Below the pieces are notes generated by a model. That model saw nothing but the letters and a program-made list of their open reading frames with translations, searched no databases and was not told the DNA's origin. Below, in pieces: positions 44,770-58,887 of a stretch of DNA of 64,000 bases. Each line of letters begins with the position of its first letter. Position 1 is the stretch's first letter. The position numbers and the translations under genes are program-made. The DNA lies in contig QHWT01000056.1 in NCBI GenBank assembly GCA_003222675.1, positions 1 through 64,000 on the forward strand. The letters run 5' to 3'. This DNA is from Acidobacteriota bacterium. GTDB taxonomy: Bacteria; Acidobacteriota; Vicinamibacteria; Vicinamibacterales; 2-12-FULL-66-21.

Positions 44770-45111
44770 ATGGCCAAGAGCGACGTCTGGCAGGGTACGC
44801 TCGCCCTGATGGTGCTGAAGACTCTCGAAACGATGGGCCCATTGCACGGATACGGCATCGCACGCCGGATCGAGCAGACCAGCGGAGACGCGCTCTCGAT
44901 CAATTACGGCACGCTGTACCCCGCGCTGCTGAAACTCGAACAGGAAGGCTACATCGCGTCGGACTGGGGCATGTCGGCCAACAACCGCAGGGCGAAGTTC
45001 TACCGGCTCACCCGAGCGGGACGCAAGCAGGTCGACAGGGCCGCGAGAGAGTGGGACCACACAACTGCGATCCTGTCGCGGTTCCTGTCGCCGAAGGAGC
45101 AGTCATCATGA
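44770..45111 (+). CDS. PadR-family regulator, cassette 5
   Basis: The 113-residue protein begins MAKSDVWQGTLALMVLKTLE with AGGAG four bases upstream, and continues HGYGIARRIEQTSGDALSIN, YGTLYPALLKLEQEGYIASD, NNRRAKFYRLTRAGRKQVDR. The longer frame from GTG 44743 would run through the palindrome and is less likely. The permease ATG overlaps its stop (ATGA). Confidence 0.95.
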   Translation: MAKSDVWQGTLALMVLKTLETMGPLHGYGIARRIEQTSGDALSINYGTLYPALLKLEQEGYIASDWGMSANNRRAKFYRLTRAGRKQVDRAAREWDHTTAILSRFLSPKEQSS

Positions 45112-47780
45112 GATGGCTACGCGCGGCGCTGGTGCGACTGCGCGGGCTGTTCGCCAGCGATCGCCTGGAGCGGGAACTGGAAGACGAGCTCGACGCCCAT
45201 CTCAGGATGCACGTTGACGACAACATTCGCGCTGGCTTGGCGCCCGACGAGGCGCGTCGCCAAGCGATTCTCGCGCTCGGCGGCATCGAGCAGACGAAGG
45301 AGCGATATCGCGATCGTCGCGGTCTGCCCGTGCTTGAACATGTCGCGCAGGATCTCCGCTACGGTCTGCGTGCGCTTCGAAAGAGTCCCGGCTTCGCCGG
45401 TGTCGCCGTACTGACGACGGCCCTCGGGATCGGCGCGAACACGGTCGTTTTCACGCTGCTTAATGCGGCCATTCTCCGTCCGTTGCCCGTCCACGAACCT
45501 GACCAGCTCGTGTACCTGCAAGGTGGTGGAAACTCGTATTTCTCGTACCCGCTATTCGAGCGCCTGCGGGACCGTAGCCATACGCTCGACGGAGTGTTCG
45601 CCACTACTCTCCTCGAACGGGTGAACGTTGTCGTCGACAGTCACGCCGGAGTCGCCAGCGGCACACTTGTCTCGGGCGACTATTTCAGCGTGCTTGGACT
45701 TGCGCCGTATCTCGGGCGTCTCCTCACCCCCGACGATGATCGAGCGGGCAACACCGTTGCGGTCATCAGCTACGGATTCTGGCGGAGCCGCTTTGGTGCC
45801 GATCCCGCCATCGTCGGGAAGACAGTCGCGGTGAATAGCGTCCCCGTGACCATCGTCGGCGTGACGCCGCCGCGATTCTTTGGCGTGACGGTGGGACGCT
45901 CGTCGGATCTGACGCTGCCGATGCGGTTCAGGGATCGCTTGTATGCGGGCAGCGGCCGGTGGGATCAACCATTCATTACGTGGCTGCAGATCGTTGCGCG
46001 CCTCAGGCCGGGTGTACTGCACGACGATGCCCGTGCGGAGCTGGACGGCATCTATCGGCAATCGCTCTCCGAGTTTGCCATGACAGCGAACGAGACCGAC
46101 CGGCGGATGGCCCAAAACGCGCACATGGAGGTGCTCCCGGCCTCGACCGGGCTCGCGAGCGGTGTGCAGAGATTTGCGCCGGCGCTCCGGCTCCTGATGT
46201 GGATTGCCGGGGTCGTCCTGCTCATTGCATGCGCGAACAGCGCCAACCTTCTCCTGGCGCGCTCCGAAGCGCGGCAGCGCGAGATTGCGATCCGTCTGGC
46301 GCTCGGCGCGAGCCGTGCGCGGCTCATTCGGCAGTTCCTGACCGAGAGCGCGCTCGTCGGGGCAATCGGCGGCACGCTCGGCCTCGTATTCGCGGTCTGG
46401 GGCAGTCAGGCGTTGACCACGATGGTTTCTGCCGGGCCGATCCCGTTACTTCTGGATGCCGCTCCGGATGTGCGTGTGCTTGCGTTCACGGGACTGGTGT
46501 CAGTCGCGACGGTACTGTTGTTTGGCCTCGCGCCCGCATGGCGCGCGACAGCGAGCGATCGGAGCGCGGGTTTGTACGGCCTCCGGTCAGCGACGGGAAC
46601 CGCACGTCTTGGCTGGAACAACACCCTGGTTGTGACGCAGGTGGCATTGTCGCTCGTTCTTGTCATTGCGGCCGGCCTCTTCATCCGCACCGTCAACAAC
46701 CTGCTCGCCGTGGACGCGGGATACAGCAGGCAGAACGTGCTGATGTTCTCGACGGACGCGTCGCTGTTGCGGTACGGCGCGACAGAAACGCGAGCACTCT
46801 ACGATTCCATCCTGAATGCGATCGAAACCCTGCCCGGCGTGTCGCGCGCAACGGCATCCTTCGTGCGCCCGATAGACTCCACCATCTATCTCGTCGGCGG
46901 CACCGGCATCGTCGACGGCCGAACATTGGATGTCGACCATCGAATCCGATTCGCGTTCAATGTCGTCAGCCCTGGATATTTTTCGGGGCTTGACGTTCCA
47001 CTGGTCATGGGCCGCGACTTCGGGCCGCAGGACACCGCGGCGTCACCGAAGGTGACCATCATCAACGAGACGATGGCCCGCCAGTTGTTTTCCGCGAACA
47101 ATCCGCTCGGTCGTCGGTTCGATGGCGGTGACGCCGGCGAGGTCGAGGTCGTGGGCGTAGTGAAGGACACCAAATACGGGAATCTCCTCGACGCCCCCCG
47201 CGGCGTAGTGTATTTCCCAATCAGCCAGACCCCCTGGGAATACCAGGTGACATTCCTGCTGCGCTACACGGGCGCGGTGGGTCCGCTCACCGAGACCGTG
47301 CGCCGGAAGGTCGCGGCCATCGATCCGAACCTCCCGATCTATCGGATCAACACGCTCGAGGCCGAGGCGCGGCAATCGCTGCTGCGGCAGCGACTGCTGG
47401 CGGCGATGTCGATGCTGTTTGGAGCCACGGCGCTGCTGTTGGCGTGTGTCGGCCTCTACGGTCTGATGTCGTTCGCCGTGGCACGGCGGAGCAAGGAAAT
47501 CGGGGTTCGGATGGCACTCGGCGCCAGGCGGGGTGAGGTGCTCTGGATGATCGTGCGCGAATCCCTGCGGCTGATCGGCGCGGGCATCATCATCGGCGTG
47601 CCGAGCGCCGTCCTTCTCATGCGCCTCGCGCGCAGCTTCCTGTTCGGTTTGACGACGGCCGATCCGCTCACACTTGCCACATCAGTCGCGGCATTGACGG
47701 TTGTGGCCCTCTCGGCCGCTTACGTTCCGGGTCGACGGGCTTCTCGCGTCGATCCAATGGTCGCGTTGCGCGTCGAATGA
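45108..47780 (+). CDS. ADOP-family FtsX/MacB-like permease, cassette 5
   Basis: The 890-residue protein starts MRWLRAALVRLRGLFASDRL at the ATG overlapping the PadR stop. The extension reads LERELEDELDAHLRMHVDDN and ILALGGIEQTKERYRDRRGL. TM1 is VAVLTTALGIGANTVVFTLL. FtsX block 1 lies near residue 365 (MWIAGVVLLIACANSANLLL) and block 2 near 770 (FGATALLLACVGLYGLMSFA), ending [16 protein letters not shown]. It closes the forward run of four permeases; a reverse-strand kinase gene converges on it. Confidence 0.95.
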   Translation: MRWLRAALVRLRGLFASDRLERELEDELDAHLRMHVDDNIRAGLAPDEARRQAILALGGIEQTKERYRDRRGLPVLEHVAQDLRYGLRALRKSPGFAGVAVLTTALGIGANTVVFTLLNAAILRPLPVHEPDQLVYLQGGGNSYFSYPLFERLRDRSHTLDGVFATTLLERVNVVVDSHAGVASGTLVSGDYFSVLGLAPYLGRLLTPDDDRAGNTVAVISYGFWRSRFGADPAIVGKTVAVNSVPVTIVGVTPPRFFGVTVGRSSDLTLPMRFRDRLYAGSGRWDQPFITWLQIVARLRPGVLHDDARAELDGIYRQSLSEFAMTANETDRRMAQNAHMEVLPASTGLASGVQRFAPALRLLMWIAGVVLLIACANSANLLLARSEARQREIAIRLALGASRARLIRQFLTESALVGAIGGTLGLVFAVWGSQALTTMVSAGPIPLLLDAAPDVRVLAFTGLVSVATVLLFGLAPAWRATASDRSAGLYGLRSATGTARLGWNNTLVVTQVALSLVLVIAAGLFIRTVNNLLAVDAGYSRQNVLMFSTDASLLRYGATETRALYDSILNAIETLPGVSRATASFVRPIDSTIYLVGGTGIVDGRTLDVDHRIRFAFNVVSPGYFSGLDVPLVMGRDFGPQDTAASPKVTIINETMARQLFSANNPLGRRFDGGDAGEVEVVGVVKDTKYGNLLDAPRGVVYFPISQTPWEYQVTFLLRYTGAVGPLTETVRRKVAAIDPNLPIYRINTLEAEARQSLLRQRLLAAMSMLFGATALLLACVGLYGLMSFAVARRSKEIGVRMALGARRGEVLWMIVRESLRLIGAGIIIGVPSAVLLMRLARSFLFGLTTADPLTLATSVAALTVVALSAAYVPGRRASRVDPMVALRVE

Positions 47781-49574: not shown

Positions 49575-49970
49575 CTACGGGCAGGTCGAGGACACCATCT
49601 TGACGGCCGAGATCCGCATGTGATGTTCGCCTCGCTCCTCCTTCATGTCTTTCGTTCCTTCCTTTTTGGCGGCAGCCTTCGCCGCAACGGCGGTGCCGGT
49701 AATCGTCACCTTGTGACCGACATGCGGGGCGAGGTCGACTCCCTTCGACGTCCCGACGATCTCGACGCTCTTCGGGCCGGTACCCTCGACGTTCGTGAGC
49801 TGGTACGTGTTCGCCTCACTACCCTTTTGTAGACATCCCGTCATGCTGTGGCTGCCACCGCCCGCCTTCTTCTGCGCGGTCCCCGTCGCCCCCGCGGCTA
49901 GCGGGATTGTGGCAAGCGCCACGGCTATGGCCGCTAGGAAAGTGAATCTGACAACACTGCTGCTTTTCAT
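49575..49970 (-). CDS. Small secreted protein of unknown function
   Basis: The 131-residue product has a signal peptide (FTFLAAIAVALATIPLAAGA). The mature part is a compact beta-rich domain starting SMTGCLQKGSEANTYQLTNV, with GHKVTITGTAV as a typical OB-fold-like strand pair, then a lysine/glutamate-rich linker and a C-terminal VKMVSSTCP. The two cysteines (CLQK and the terminal CP) could form a disulfide. AGGAGGA precedes the start. Family function unknown; similar proteins are frequent in Acidobacteriota. Confidence 0.75.
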   Translation of the reverse strand: MKSSSVVRFTFLAAIAVALATIPLAAGATGTAQKKAGGGSHSMTGCLQKGSEANTYQLTNVEGTGPKSVEIVGTSKGVDLAPHVGHKVTITGTAVAAKAAAKKEGTKDMKEERGEHHMRISAVKMVSSTCP

Positions 49971-51984: not shown

Positions 51985-53715
51985 TTAACGGACGAAGCCG
52001 GCGAGCGCCCGACGCTGTGACGCGGTCCAACCCTCGAGTGTCTCGGCGTACCGGCGGCTCTCGTCGGCGTATCGCGCTGAGAGGTCGACGGTCTCGTCAG
52101 GATCGTTTTCGATGTCGAACCATCTGGATCGGCCGGACCCCATATCGTGGATGAATTTGCGCGGTCCGTCGCGAAGACCGACCAGCGCCAGCGAGTAGTC
52201 GGTGAAGAAGAGCGCCATGCGAGACCGTCCCTTCAGCATCGACTCCCCCTGATACGCGCGGGGAACCGGCAGTCCGAGAAGGTCGAGCACGGTCGGCGCG
52301 GTATCGAGCAAGCTCACGATCCGGCGAGCGCGGATCGATTGCGACATGAGCCCCGGCGCCGAGATCAGATACGGCACGCGCACGTTCTCGTCGTACAACT
52401 GGAAGGTGTGGCCATAGTTGCCCTCGTGCTGTCCGAAGGCTTCGCCGTGATCGCCCAACACGATCCAGATCGTGTTTCGATCGAGTCCGCGCGCCTGGAG
52501 CCCGCGGCGGAGCGCTCCCAGAGCGGCATCGCCGTAGTGAACCGCGTTGCGATATCGCCCGAATTCGTCGCGATCGGGGAACGGGCCGCGGTCGGGCGTT
52601 TCATACGGATGGTGGCCGGCGATCGGAAGGTAGGTTACGAAGAACGGTCGGCCGGCGGGCCCCGCGTCAATCCAGCCCAGGATGCTCGCGATCGTTGACG
52701 GCTCGTCGATGCCGAAGCTCGAATCGTGCCGGCCGCCGATATCACCCGCATCCGCCAGCACGCCATATCCCCTGTTCTGGATAATGGCGTTCATCCCAAG
52801 GTACGGAAATCGTCCGGAGTGGAAGAGCGCAGTGCGATAGCCATGCTCGGCGAGCACCGCGGCAATGGAGTGGCACGGAACGCCGACGTACGACTCGGCG
52901 GTTGTATCAAACGCCGGAGACACCGAACACAGGATCGACAACAGGCCCTTGATGCTTTCAGGGTAGACCGCGTACGCGCTTTCGAACACGACGCCCGATC
53001 GGGAGAGCTCGGAGAGATTCGGCGCGACATCAGGCGCCGCTCCGTACACCCCCAGATACCGCGCACCCGTTGACTCGAGGCTGACCAGAACGACGTTCCG
53101 CCCGGCCGCCGACCCACGGAATCGTAAGAGGTCCTCGTCTGGCGGACGCTCGACATGGCTCGCACGCCAATCGCGCGCCGCCGGCTTCGCAGCGCCGCGC
53201 ACCATGATATTTCCGGCGAGCGCAGTCCAGGCATTCCGCTCCATGCCCAGGGTGTCCACGTGGGCACCGGCGATCGGCCCGAACGCGGCGCATCCAATTA
53301 GTGCGATGAGTACGGGGCGTGTCGGCACTCGCCGGCAGACGATCGGCGCTAGAGGGATAACGGCCAGGCCGACGCCCGTCAGCCACGCGTTTGACCACGT
53401 GGCGTAGTGACGGATGGAATCTGCGAGCGGTCCGCCGGCGGCGTGCAACATCGGCCAGGTGAGCGGCGACCACAACACGCGTTGTACTGGAATGTTGATG
53501 ACCGCATACAACGCGACGATTGCGTATATCGTCCAGACAACGCGCGTGCGCTTCCGGAGGGCGGATTCGAAGGCCGCGAAGACGAGCACGACCGCCGCGT
53601 CGTGCCACAAGTACGCGACTGGCGACCACCACGTGATCGTCACGCGATGTCCCACCGACCCCAACGCTCTGCTCATCGCCAACACGATCAGCAGGCTCAT
53701 CGCCTTCATCGGCAT
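51985..53715 (-). CDS. Membrane-anchored sulfatase/phosphoethanolamine-transferase-like protein
   Basis: The 576-residue protein has an N-terminal membrane part (helices at about 8-24, 35-50, 61-78, 110-126 and 135-150) and a C-terminal alkaline-phosphatase-superfamily domain. The latter begins [20 protein letters not shown], with [12 protein letters not shown] at the nucleophile position (Ser or Glu-Ser rather than the sulfatase C/S-x-P-x-R) and ends with [20 protein letters not shown], the GDHG metal site. The layout resembles LtaS-like or lipid-headgroup transferases. It is last in a three-gene operon, overlapping the desaturase-fusion gene by 10 bases, so it may act on a lipid. Confidence 0.85.
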
Positions 53716-54842
53716 ACAAGGTTTACGCGCTTCAGCAGCGGCACGGCGACGATGCGGCTTGTACCTCGCTTTCGCCAGATCCAGTCGTGAACGATGACGG
53801 CCGCTGCCGGAGGATCCGCATACACCGCGGCGCGATCACCCACGTACGACAGCGGAATGACAATCAAATCGAAATCCTGCGGATGCGCCGGCGAATACCA
53901 CGCGTGAAGGAACTCGACGCCGGCCGGATCGAGCAGGCGCCGGGCTCGATCCAGGTTCGCGCTACTCGCGTCGATAATCGTCAGCCGCGCGCCGGGACAC
54001 AGTCGCCGGAGCACGATCGCCGTCCGCGGGAACAGACCGCCGCCAACGATCGCGATCGATTCAATTCGCTTCGGGGCCGCGGTCAGGACGGACCGGAGCG
54101 CGCGTGCGTGCACGTCGATCACGAAACGTTGCAGCACCCGAGACCTCAGGACCAGCCGCTCGAGCCCGTTCAGACCGCACGCATCGAGCCAGCGGAGGAG
54201 CGCCGGCCACCGACTTTGACGGGCGCCGGCGTCACGATGCTCCGGCAGGCGCGACCAGTGCACGCCGGGTCGCGCGTGATGCTCGACGTGATAACCGTCG
54301 TTGAAGAACAGCAGGTTGTAGACGGGGCCGTAGTGGCTCGTTGTGCCGTGATGATGCTCGTAGAATCCATGAACCGCGCAAAGAAGCAGGCCGACAAAAA
54401 ATCCCGGAACATACGTGCCTGCGAAGAACTCCGCGTTGCGTACGGCCATCGTCGTCCACAGCGCCAGCACCGCTGCTACCTGCACTGACAGTTCCGACGA
54501 TCTGCGGACGCGCGGCCGCATAGCCGCGTGGTGCGCGAGGTGACGGTCGCGCCACAGCGACTGCGGAATCCCCAGGAGCAGGGTCAGATACAGAGCGAAC
54601 AGGCGGTTCGCTACGCCTGTTCGGAAGAAGGGACGGTGTATGAAATTGTGCGCGATGGTGTTGGACGTCCACCAGACGCCGATCGCGATGATCGGCGGTG
54701 TCGGCCACGTGGCCAGGACGATGCCGTGAGCCGCGGCAAGCGCGATCATCACGGCGTCGTACGTCGACTCCTGCCCGACCGAGCGGCGAATGAGGAGCAC
54801 TGGTTCAGTTCCGGTAATCGACCAATGCGCGAATCGGCGCAT
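53706..54842 (-). CDS. Fatty-acid desaturase fused to a Rossmann/methyltransferase-like domain
   Basis: Residues 1-240 form a membrane di-iron desaturase/hydroxylase with the three His boxes: H65NFIH69, H101LAHH105 and H185VEHH189, plus HGFYEHHH at 158-165. Hydrophobic helices lie between them. Residues about 245-378 form a separate soluble domain with a nucleotide-binding start [38 protein letters not shown] and [18 protein letters not shown], like a nicotianamine-synthase or SAM-methyltransferase Rossmann fold. The start overlaps the upstream secreted-protein gene by 38 bases; a later start is possible. Such a fusion suggests oxidation and then modification of one lipid substrate. Confidence 0.85.
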
Positions 54843-55269
54843 AGTCGGTGTTGCCGCTGACCTTCGTCAGGCCCATCCCTGTTGCGTACGGGTCCGGCGC
54901 ATCAGGCGGTTCGTTGGCGGTCCTCAGTCGCGGCTTGAGCTGATGCCGATTCCCGAACGCGACGATCTGGCGTGTGCCGGCGATCTCTCTGAGATCGGTC
55001 CACTCGCGCCGCGCCAGACGCTCGTCACCCCCGAGCGTGAAATACAGGTAGCCGCGCGCGGGCGGCTGATAGTCGTTGGGGTTGTTCGGCACCGCGAGAG
55101 AAAAGACGCCAAAAATCTGAATCGTCTGCGCCGCCTCGGCGTTTGGCACGACGACGACACGATCGACGCGTGCATACACCGCGATTGGATCACTGGCGTG
55201 CAGCGTGGCGGCGACACCCCCAATGATGAGGCCGCTCAAGGACAGTGCAACGAGGCGAAATCTCTGCAT
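54805..55269 (-). CDS. Secreted protein, first gene of the desaturase operon
   Basis: The 154-residue product has a signal peptide ([20 protein letters not shown]) and a mature domain beginning [20 protein letters not shown] with repeated aromatic/Pro motifs ([20 protein letters not shown]). The C-terminal part ([20 protein letters not shown]) is polar. I recognise no family, although the N-terminal part resembles uncharacterised acidobacterial exported proteins. It is co-oriented and overlaps the desaturase-fusion gene, so the three products probably work on one envelope lipid pathway. Confidence 0.65.
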
Positions 55270-56460: not shown

Positions 56461-58887
56461 TTAGAGGCCTTTTCCTCTCAACGCCACGAGCGGATCGATC
56501 TGCGTGGCGCGTCGCGCCGGGACGTACGCCGCCACGAGCGCGACCAACACGAGAAGCGCGGCCGCGGCGCCGAACGCCGCCGGATCGAGCGGTCCCACTT
56601 CAAAGAGAAACGACTGGAGCACGCGCGCCAACGCCAGCGCGACGACCAACCCGGCGGCGGCGCCCACGCCCACGGATCGCATCGCGCCGTCCAGCATCAG
56701 TCCCACGACGCTCGACGCGTCCGCGCCCAGCGCCATCCGGATCCCAATCTCCGACGTCCGCTGCGCGACAGCCTGCGATAGCACACTGTAGATCCCTGTC
56801 GCGGCCAGCAACAGCGCGAGCGCCGCAAAGGCGGCGACGAGCATCAGCAGGAACCGACGGTCCGCCACCGAGTCGGCGATCATGCGATCGAGCGACGAGA
56901 TGTCAACAGGGACGTCCGAATCGTACTGGCGCAGCGTGTCGCGGATCGCCGACGCCACCTGCCGCTGCTGCGGCGCAGCGGCCGCGCGGGCGACGACGCC
57001 GATCGTCGATCGCGCCCGCCACGGCTGCTGGTACATGGACACGAAGACCTGCGGAACCGGCGCACGCAGGAGCGACTGCTGGTGCACGTCGCCGACGACC
57101 CCGACGATCGTGAAGAGAGGATTCACCGTATCCATCCCGGCGTACTTGAACCGCACTCCGATCGGATCGACACGCGGCAGGAAGCGCTTCACAAACGTCT
57201 CGCTGACGACGGCCGCCGGGGGCTGCCCTGCGGTATCGCCATCGGCAAGGAAACGGCCTTCGCGCAGCCGCATTCCGAGCGTCTCGAGATACCCCGGTGT
57301 CACGACCTTGTATCCAGCGGAGTACTTGAAGCCGTCGTAGATGCCGTCGGGCGTCGCTCCGACATCGGGATTGCCCTCGAAGGTCAGCGCGCCGTCGGCA
57401 TCGAACCTTCCCAGCGGCAGCTCGTTCGCCGCGCCCGCGGCCTTGACGCCGGGAATCGCGCGGATGCGCTCCAGCAGTCCCGCATAGAAATGCGCGGCGC
57501 GCGCCGGATCGGGATACTTCGTGCCGGGGACGGACATGTCCGCTGTCACCACGCCGGTCGCGTCGAAGCCCGGATCGACGGCCATGAGGTGCGCGAAGCT
57601 TCGCACCAGCAGCGCCGCGCCGACGAGGAGCACGAGCGCGAGCGCGACCTCGCCGATCACGAGCAGCGTGCGCACCGTCGCGCGGGCAGGCGCCGCGGCG
57701 CGGCCGCCCTCGGCGAGCGCGTCGCGCAGGCTCGCACGCGACGCATGGAGCGATGGCACGAGCCCGAATACGAGCGGCGTCAGCAGCGCGAGCACCAGCG
57801 TGAACGCCATCACGCGCCCATCGACGCCGATGGTCTCGTGACGCGGGAGCGCCATCGCGTTGATGGACAGTAGCGCGCGCACCAGCCACGCCGCGATCAG
57901 CAGCCCGCCGATCCCGCCGAGAATGCCCAGAAGCGAGCTCTCCACCAGCAGCTGGCGCACCAGACGCGCGCGGCTCGCGCCCAGCGCCGCGCGCACGGCG
58001 ATTTCCGTCCGCCGCTCCTCTCCCCTCGCCAGCAGGGTCGTGGCGACGTTGGCGCAGGCGATCAGCAGGACGAGTCCGACCGTCGCGAGAAGCAACAGCA
58101 GCGAATTCTTCGAGTTCGCCGTCACGACGTCCTGCAAACGCACCAGCGCGACGCCAATCGCATTCTCTCCGTTGCCGTACTGCTGTTTGAGCTGCGCTGC
58201 AATGGTGTTCATCTCGGCCGCGGCGGACGCGAGAGGCACGCCGACTTTCAGTCGCGCGACGACGGACCAGTTGTGCGCGGTGCGGCCGCTCTCGTCGGGA
58301 TCGACTTCCGCAGGGACCCAGACGTCAACGTTGCCCGGGAAAACGGACGCCTCCGGCATGACGCCGACGACCCGCGCCTCGCGATCGCCGACGCGCAGCG
58401 TGAGAAGCGACAGATCGGCGTTCGATGACAGCGTGCGCTCCCAGAACCGGTGACTCACGATGACTGCCGGAGTCCCATGAAGCCGCAGCTCCTCAGGGAC
58501 GAAGGTGCGGCCGATCGCGGGCGACATGCCGAACACGCGGAAGAAGCCGTCGCTGACACTGCACACCTCGGCGAAGCGCGGCTCGCTGCCGCCGAGCACC
58601 GTGTTGGTGTCGCACGCGTACGCCGCCATCGTGTCGAAGCTGGTCGAGCGCTGCCGCCAGTCCGCGAAATTCGGGTGCGAGACCCGCGCGACGCCTTTCG
58701 TCCCCTGCTCGGACAGCTGGACGATGCGATCCGATTCACTGTACGGCAGCGGCCGAAGCAGCACGCCGTTGACGACACTGAAGATCGCGGTATTGGCGCC
58801 GATACCGACCGCGAGTGTGATGATAGCCACCAGCGTAAACACCGGACGCTTGACGAGCATCCGCAACGCGAGACGGACATCAGCCAT
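56461..58887 (-). CDS. ADOP-family FtsX/MacB-like permease without PadR partner
   Basis: The 808-residue product begins MADVRLALRMLVKRPVFTLV, that is, almost at TM1 (VAIITLAVGIGANTAIFSVV), the shortest N-terminus of the seven intact paralogues. FtsX block 1 is near residue 265 (LLLLLATVGLVLLIACANVA), the second periplasmic domain follows TLLVIGEVALALVLLVGAAL, and block 2 starts near 685 (VAAFAALALLLAATGIYSVL), ending RRATQIDPLVALRGKGL. No regulator or ATPase adjoins it. The strand is exceptionally GC-rich here, producing long shadow frames on both strands. Confidence 0.95.
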   Translation of the reverse strand: MADVRLALRMLVKRPVFTLVAIITLAVGIGANTAIFSVVNGVLLRPLPYSESDRIVQLSEQGTKGVARVSHPNFADWRQRSTSFDTMAAYACDTNTVLGGSEPRFAEVCSVSDGFFRVFGMSPAIGRTFVPEELRLHGTPAVIVSHRFWERTLSSNADLSLLTLRVGDREARVVGVMPEASVFPGNVDVWVPAEVDPDESGRTAHNWSVVARLKVGVPLASAAAEMNTIAAQLKQQYGNGENAIGVALVRLQDVVTANSKNSLLLLLATVGLVLLIACANVATTLLARGEERRTEIAVRAALGASRARLVRQLLVESSLLGILGGIGGLLIAAWLVRALLSINAMALPRHETIGVDGRVMAFTLVLALLTPLVFGLVPSLHASRASLRDALAEGGRAAAPARATVRTLLVIGEVALALVLLVGAALLVRSFAHLMAVDPGFDATGVVTADMSVPGTKYPDPARAAHFYAGLLERIRAIPGVKAAGAANELPLGRFDADGALTFEGNPDVGATPDGIYDGFKYSAGYKVVTPGYLETLGMRLREGRFLADGDTAGQPPAAVVSETFVKRFLPRVDPIGVRFKYAGMDTVNPLFTIVGVVGDVHQQSLLRAPVPQVFVSMYQQPWRARSTIGVVARAAAAPQQRQVASAIRDTLRQYDSDVPVDISSLDRMIADSVADRRFLLMLVAAFAALALLLAATGIYSVLSQAVAQRTSEIGIRMALGADASSVVGLMLDGAMRSVGVGAAAGLVVALALARVLQSFLFEVGPLDPAAFGAAAALLVLVALVAAYVPARRATQIDPLVALRGKGL

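Follow-up and report, generated by a model that had tools for sequence, protein, structure and literature searches.

A three-gene cassette, organised around a single gene that joins a fatty-acid-desaturase-type membrane domain to a domain modelled as a minimal SAM methyltransferase fold, was identified in the window, a 64,000-nucleotide stretch of genomic DNA from an Acidobacteriota bacterium. Acidobacteria, which abound in soil, produce unusual membrane lipids, and several of the genes for their biosynthesis are, to our knowledge, not known. The cassette is compact and patchily distributed, and its fused oxidase-methyltransferase offers a candidate, open to direct testing, for a novel modification of lipids. 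The open literature searched yielded no earlier description of a desaturase-methyltransferase fusion or of its cassette. The cassette features, listed in order of transcription with the two domains of the fusion given after the gene itself, are as follows:

54805-55269, minus strand: secreted or periplasmic protein of 154 aa with a signal peptide, the first gene of the cassette.
53706-54842, minus strand: desaturase-methyltransferase fusion, 378 codons from the ATG at 54842; the likelier start is the GTG at 54800 (364 aa).
54228-54764, minus strand: FA_desaturase (PF00487) membrane di-iron domain, approximately residues 27-205 of the fusion.
53709-54080, minus strand: minimal class I SAM methyltransferase-like domain, approximately residues 255-378 of the fusion.
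51985-53715, minus strand: membrane-anchored alkaline-phosphatase-superfamily (LtaS-type) phosphotransferase-like protein, up to 576 aa.

The initial annotation had described a 378-residue frame with three desaturase histidine boxes, followed by a separate domain, and both elements are present. Translation of the fusion probably starts at GTG 54800, directly past the stop codon of the upstream gene, since several relatives begin at that site. The FA_desaturase match is well above the Pfam gathering cut-off (E 6e-21, 75.8 bits versus 29.7), and the boxes, which lie near 54636-54650, 54528-54542 and 54276-54290, read H65-x3-H69, H101-x2-H104-H105 and H185-x2-H188-H189, in agreement with the PF00487 pattern of HX3-4H, HX2-3HH and HX2-3HH. 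The three boxes, and H163 with them, do not vary in any aligned copy that spans these residues. The desaturase half is predicted to be an acyl-chain or other hydrocarbon oxidase, and since the genome of the window holds four other desaturase genes it is regarded as an accessory copy. No desaturase match to the fusion was obtained in a profile search of the PDB, and the matches from a fold search with the fusion model were filled by the methyltransferase half. In the NCBIfam scan one member scored best against the beta-carotene ketolase CrtW (E 6.6e-6), with CrtR also among the weak matches, so that the desaturase-type domain could feasibly be a carotenoid or isoprenoid hydroxylase or ketolase, with the methyltransferase capping the resultant hydroxyl as a methyl ether and the phosphotransferase acting elsewhere. 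Hydroxylation followed by O-methylation would be natural chemistry for a single bifunctional enzyme. This reading is nonetheless improbable: the Crt scores do not come near the family cut-offs, more members (eight of nine) match DesA-type desaturases, also with scores far below cut-off, no carotenoid gene was seen among the identified flanking genes, and the constant LtaS-type partner is better suited to phospholipids or glycolipids. Taken by themselves, the weak CrtW, CrtR and DesA similarities do not appear to narrow the hydrocarbon substrate.

The second domain, which includes the IAIVGGG...LTIID stretch, adopts a clear methyltransferase fold in the predicted structure. The fusion model has a mean pLDDT of 72, with most of the second domain at 80-90 and residues 355-370 poorly modelled, and the domain shows six strands, one short of the usual seven. 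The best fold matches listed are SAM methyltransferases, many of them with SAM or SAH bound, including the SAM/SAH complexes 3t7t (Z 12.6, rmsd 4.5 over 138 residues) and 3t7s (Z 12.6, rmsd 4.6 over 133 residues); Foldseek returned the same methyltransferase class with an E value of about 1e-5. The reservation of the initial annotation that the Rossmann part might be a fold artefact was not borne out. A Rossmann-type fold, a glycine-rich motif I and an acidic residue after strand 2 are all present, as expected of class I enzymes, with the conserved D291 closing strand 2. Sequence motifs of the domain comprise GGGLFPRT, near 54021-54044, and VHDWIW, at residues 351-356, and G267-G269 (GGG), PRT, D291, HDW and K371-R372 are invariant in all copies covering them. 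Structure prediction had been proposed as a means of discriminating between a SAM and an NAD pocket, and the outcome was a SAM-methyltransferase fold. Indeed, the GxGxxG signature of NAD(P) Rossmann domains is absent, a proline (GGGLFP) occupying the position of the third glycine in all copies, and the fold neighbours likewise argue against an NAD(P) domain. Given the SAM-methyltransferase fold matches and a GGGLFP motif without the third glycine that NAD domains have, the second domain is, as modelled, a minimal class I SAM methyltransferase-type fold outside the curated families. The match of the domain alone to Methyltransf_25 (PF13649) is sub-threshold (E 0.0014, 19.7 bits versus a curated cut-off of 27), and the domain is therefore assigned to the fold class only. 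Nicotianamine synthase (PF03059), which was suspected because of the motif, was rejected, since matches were below cut-off and were confined to one of eight members (E 0.043); the fold match to MtNAS (3fpg, Z 10.5) is inseparable from those to other methyltransferases, and a PF03059 survey of the phylum returned nothing for the second domain and two sub-threshold matches elsewhere.

The short length of the domain, its position below the Pfam cut-off, the strand missing from the model and the replaced glycine would all be compatible with a regulatory or structural module that binds SAM, SAH or nothing, leaving the desaturase as the only catalytic part. However, the second domain is as strongly conserved as the desaturase half (mean identities across ten copies of 53% and 55%, respectively), and its invariant residues fit a catalytic or ligand pocket, making such a module unlikely. 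In one copy (L012:4297-5409) the methyltransferase domain carries, between its strands 3 and 4, an in-frame serine-aspartate-rich repeat of approximately 29 residues.

Genome collections were searched for desaturase-Rossmann fusions, as had been recommended, which recovered the fusion in 16 further loci, nearly all from Acidobacteria (L010, L011, L012, L013, L014, L015, L016, which is broken, L017, L018, L030, L031, L032, L033, L034, L057 and L058). The L013 contig also occurs as G008, L002 and L035, and L015 is from a record filed as uncultured bacterium. Over both halves, full-length copies share about 50-64% of their residues with the protein encoded in the window. Frameshift-like breaks in some metagenome assemblies (L017, L018 and L031) might be taken as a sign of misassembly, or of two genes joined by chance. 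However, the frame is uninterrupted in at least 12 independent loci, from different families and assemblies, which refutes this explanation and leaves it a negligible probability. Nor was a split version, with the halves encoded by separate genes, found among the genomes searched, contrary to the concern that sequencing might have joined separate genes. Among separate desaturases, the nearest (L059) shares 30% identity, and neither a methyltransferase nor a secreted protein or phosphotransferase of the cassette kind lies beside it. Searches of plasmids revealed nothing related to the second domain, the only matches being desaturases of approximately 25% identity, mostly rhizobial and located in a conserved cluster where inspected; no relative was found in viral contigs. 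On three rhizobial plasmids (L043, L044 and L045) these distant desaturases are clustered with an aminotransferase, an arginase-like protein and a hydrolase, with a cyclopropane-synthase-family methyltransferase present in the cluster on two of the three and a phosphoethanolamine-lipid A transferase gene nearby on one. The fusion gene at L016:4260-6826 is truncated in the methyltransferase half, next to a transposase-like ORF; the metagenome bin concerned also contains an intact cassette (L011).

The expectation that the fusion would lie in an operon of overlapping genes, with a secreted protein and a membrane phosphotransferase-type enzyme, was borne out, and the operon is conserved. The gene order is secreted protein, fusion and phosphotransferase-like enzyme, with overlapping ends. 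The 154-aa protein has no visible lipobox and belongs to no Pfam or NCBIfam family; its model (pLDDT 86) is an OB-like beta-barrel, for which the fold matches are weak, OB-fold proteins making up the majority (Z at most 6.0, Foldseek E 0.06 at best). The phosphotransferase-like gene probably starts at ATG 53709, giving a 4-nt ATGA overlap with the fusion gene, an overlap that is seen at six of ten loci. Its product has N-terminal hydrophobic segments followed, from approximately residue 206, by a catalytic-type domain of the Sulfatase superfamily (Pfam), which presumably faces outward, as in the family at large; the desaturase histidines would face the cytoplasm. The label of sulfatase-like transferase given in the initial annotation thus holds as to superfamily and phosphotransferase type, but the protein is not a true sulfatase. 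The C/S-x-P-x-R motif of formylglycine sulfatases is absent, and the nucleophile position is occupied by PES(I/V)K in all 13 of 13 copies. E214, S254 (PESIK), H368/H369 and D422-H423 are retained, corresponding to the LtaS-type pattern of a metal-ligand E, an S/T nucleophile, and DH and H ligands, and the best solved-structure matches in the PDB profile search include LtaS-type proteins. The score against the LtaS equivalog NF053595 is 41.4 bits, versus a cut-off of 970, and EptA and CptA are weak NCBIfam matches.

The three-gene set is common to all loci with readable flanks except L015. A strong match to the fusion was present in 5 of 396 genomes sampled across the phylum, and a separate search with the secreted protein returned exactly those five genomes and none other; within the class, full-length fusions were found in 8 of 193 genomes. 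The cassette is inherited jointly: the evolutionary distances of its four parts are correlated (Mantel r 0.50-0.72, p < 0.001 throughout), and at L013 the fusion and phosphotransferase form one 926-aa frame. In the concatenated tree bacterial families are mixed, with the window copy grouping with one of a different family (support 0.95) and a second member of the window's own family placed elsewhere (support 1.0). This mixing, together with the patchy distribution, suggests that copies were transferred horizontally or that ancestral ones were repeatedly lost. Genes flanking several loci in common are limited to common permeases and PQQ-type beta-propeller proteins, so that no fourth member of the cassette was found among shared flanking genes, and the cassette itself contains no acyltransferase, flippase or electron donor gene. 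MacB/FtsX-type permeases of approximately 800-900 aa flank the cassette in the window (45051-47780 and 56461-58887), and related permeases occur near the cassettes of L018 and L032, probably because such proteins are numerous in these genomes. The small secreted proteins encoded at 49575-49970 of the window and at L064:2281-3069, elsewhere in the same genome, are alike by eye; the former belongs to no Pfam family.

The preferred interpretation, held tentatively and with somewhat less than even confidence, is that of a self-contained cassette that oxidises and methylates a membrane lipid on the inside and exchanges its phospho-headgroup on the outside. The di-iron desaturase-type domain would desaturate or hydroxylate a hydrocarbon chain on the cytoplasmic side, after which the attached SAM methyltransferase domain would methylate the product, at the double bond or the hydroxyl so formed. 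Outside, the LtaS-type phosphotransferase, perhaps assisted by the small periplasmic protein, would act on the modified lipid and move or remove the phospho-headgroup via its serine nucleophile. Activity of both domains, the lipid nature of the substrate, the order of steps and the headgroup chemistry are thus all predictions of this scheme, and the minimal second domain, below every curated cut-off, counts against it, as do the lack of an acyltransferase, flippase or electron donor gene in the cassette and the restriction of the phospholipid link to one locus. There is precedent in TmsA-B, in which the double bond of oleate is methylated with SAM, and for which working methyltransferase-redox enzyme fusions carry both activities (PMC7762315). 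The stronger proposition, that the fusion represents a new bifunctional class in which one polypeptide first oxidises a membrane lipid and then methylates it, coupled to the LtaS-type enzyme outside and giving a lipid new to Acidobacteria, is considered rather unlikely.

At the exceptional L015 locus (L015:2342-5427), which groups with G275 in the tree (support 0.97), the usual partners are replaced: the genes after the fusion encode a phosphatidylserine decarboxylase (Pfam E 2e-36) and a protein resembling phosphoglycerol transferase I. Since both are phospholipid functions, this single locus points to a link between the cassette and phospholipids. Phosphatidylserine decarboxylase is the enzyme that makes phosphatidylethanolamine, and its pairing with the fusion, along with the weak EptA and CptA matches of the cassette phosphotransferase, could also be accommodated if the methyltransferase N-methylates a phosphoethanolamine headgroup while the desaturase alters the chain, with the phosphotransferase moving the headgroup to an outer-surface glycan or protein. 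The chances of this are low, however, as Pfam and NCBIfam scans revealed no family-level similarity to known phospholipid N-methyltransferases, and the pairing is seen at one locus only, where the phosphotransferase differs and the decarboxylase start is roughly 200 nt away. The lipid-modification pathway originally proposed for the operon is supported as a general reading and, as an overall interpretation, in part; the acyl substrate, the action of the methyltransferase on the desaturase product and headgroup transfer, as opposed to hydrolysis, are its presumptive elements.

Comparison with known systems reveals both shared and distinctive elements. In common with FA_desaturase enzymes such as DesA and CrtW/CrtR, the fusion has three invariant histidine boxes, hydrophobic helices and, lying between boxes II and III, a further histidine that is invariant, but it falls far below every NCBIfam equivalog cut-off and adds the C-terminal SAM methyltransferase-type domain. 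That domain resembles class I methyltransferases (3t7s, CysG(N-16) 9fcq and MtNAS 3fpg) in fold, in the glycine-rich loop after strand 1 and in the acidic residue after strand 2, whereas its minimal size, its GGGLFPRT and VHDWIW motifs and its attachment to a membrane oxidase-type domain set it apart. The third protein shares an N-terminal membrane segment, an alkaline-phosphatase-superfamily domain and a metal-ligand pattern with LtaS-type phosphoglycerol and phosphoethanolamine transferases; it differs in having the PESIK serine at the nucleophile position, in accompanying the fusion and in scoring far below the equivalog cut-offs for LtaS, EptA and CptA. TmsA-TmsB, of 10-methylstearate synthesis, likewise joins a SAM methyltransferase to a redox enzyme and acts on an unsaturated acyl chain; its redox partner, however, is a reductase that acts after methylation as opposed to a di-iron desaturase, and it is not accompanied by a phosphotransferase.
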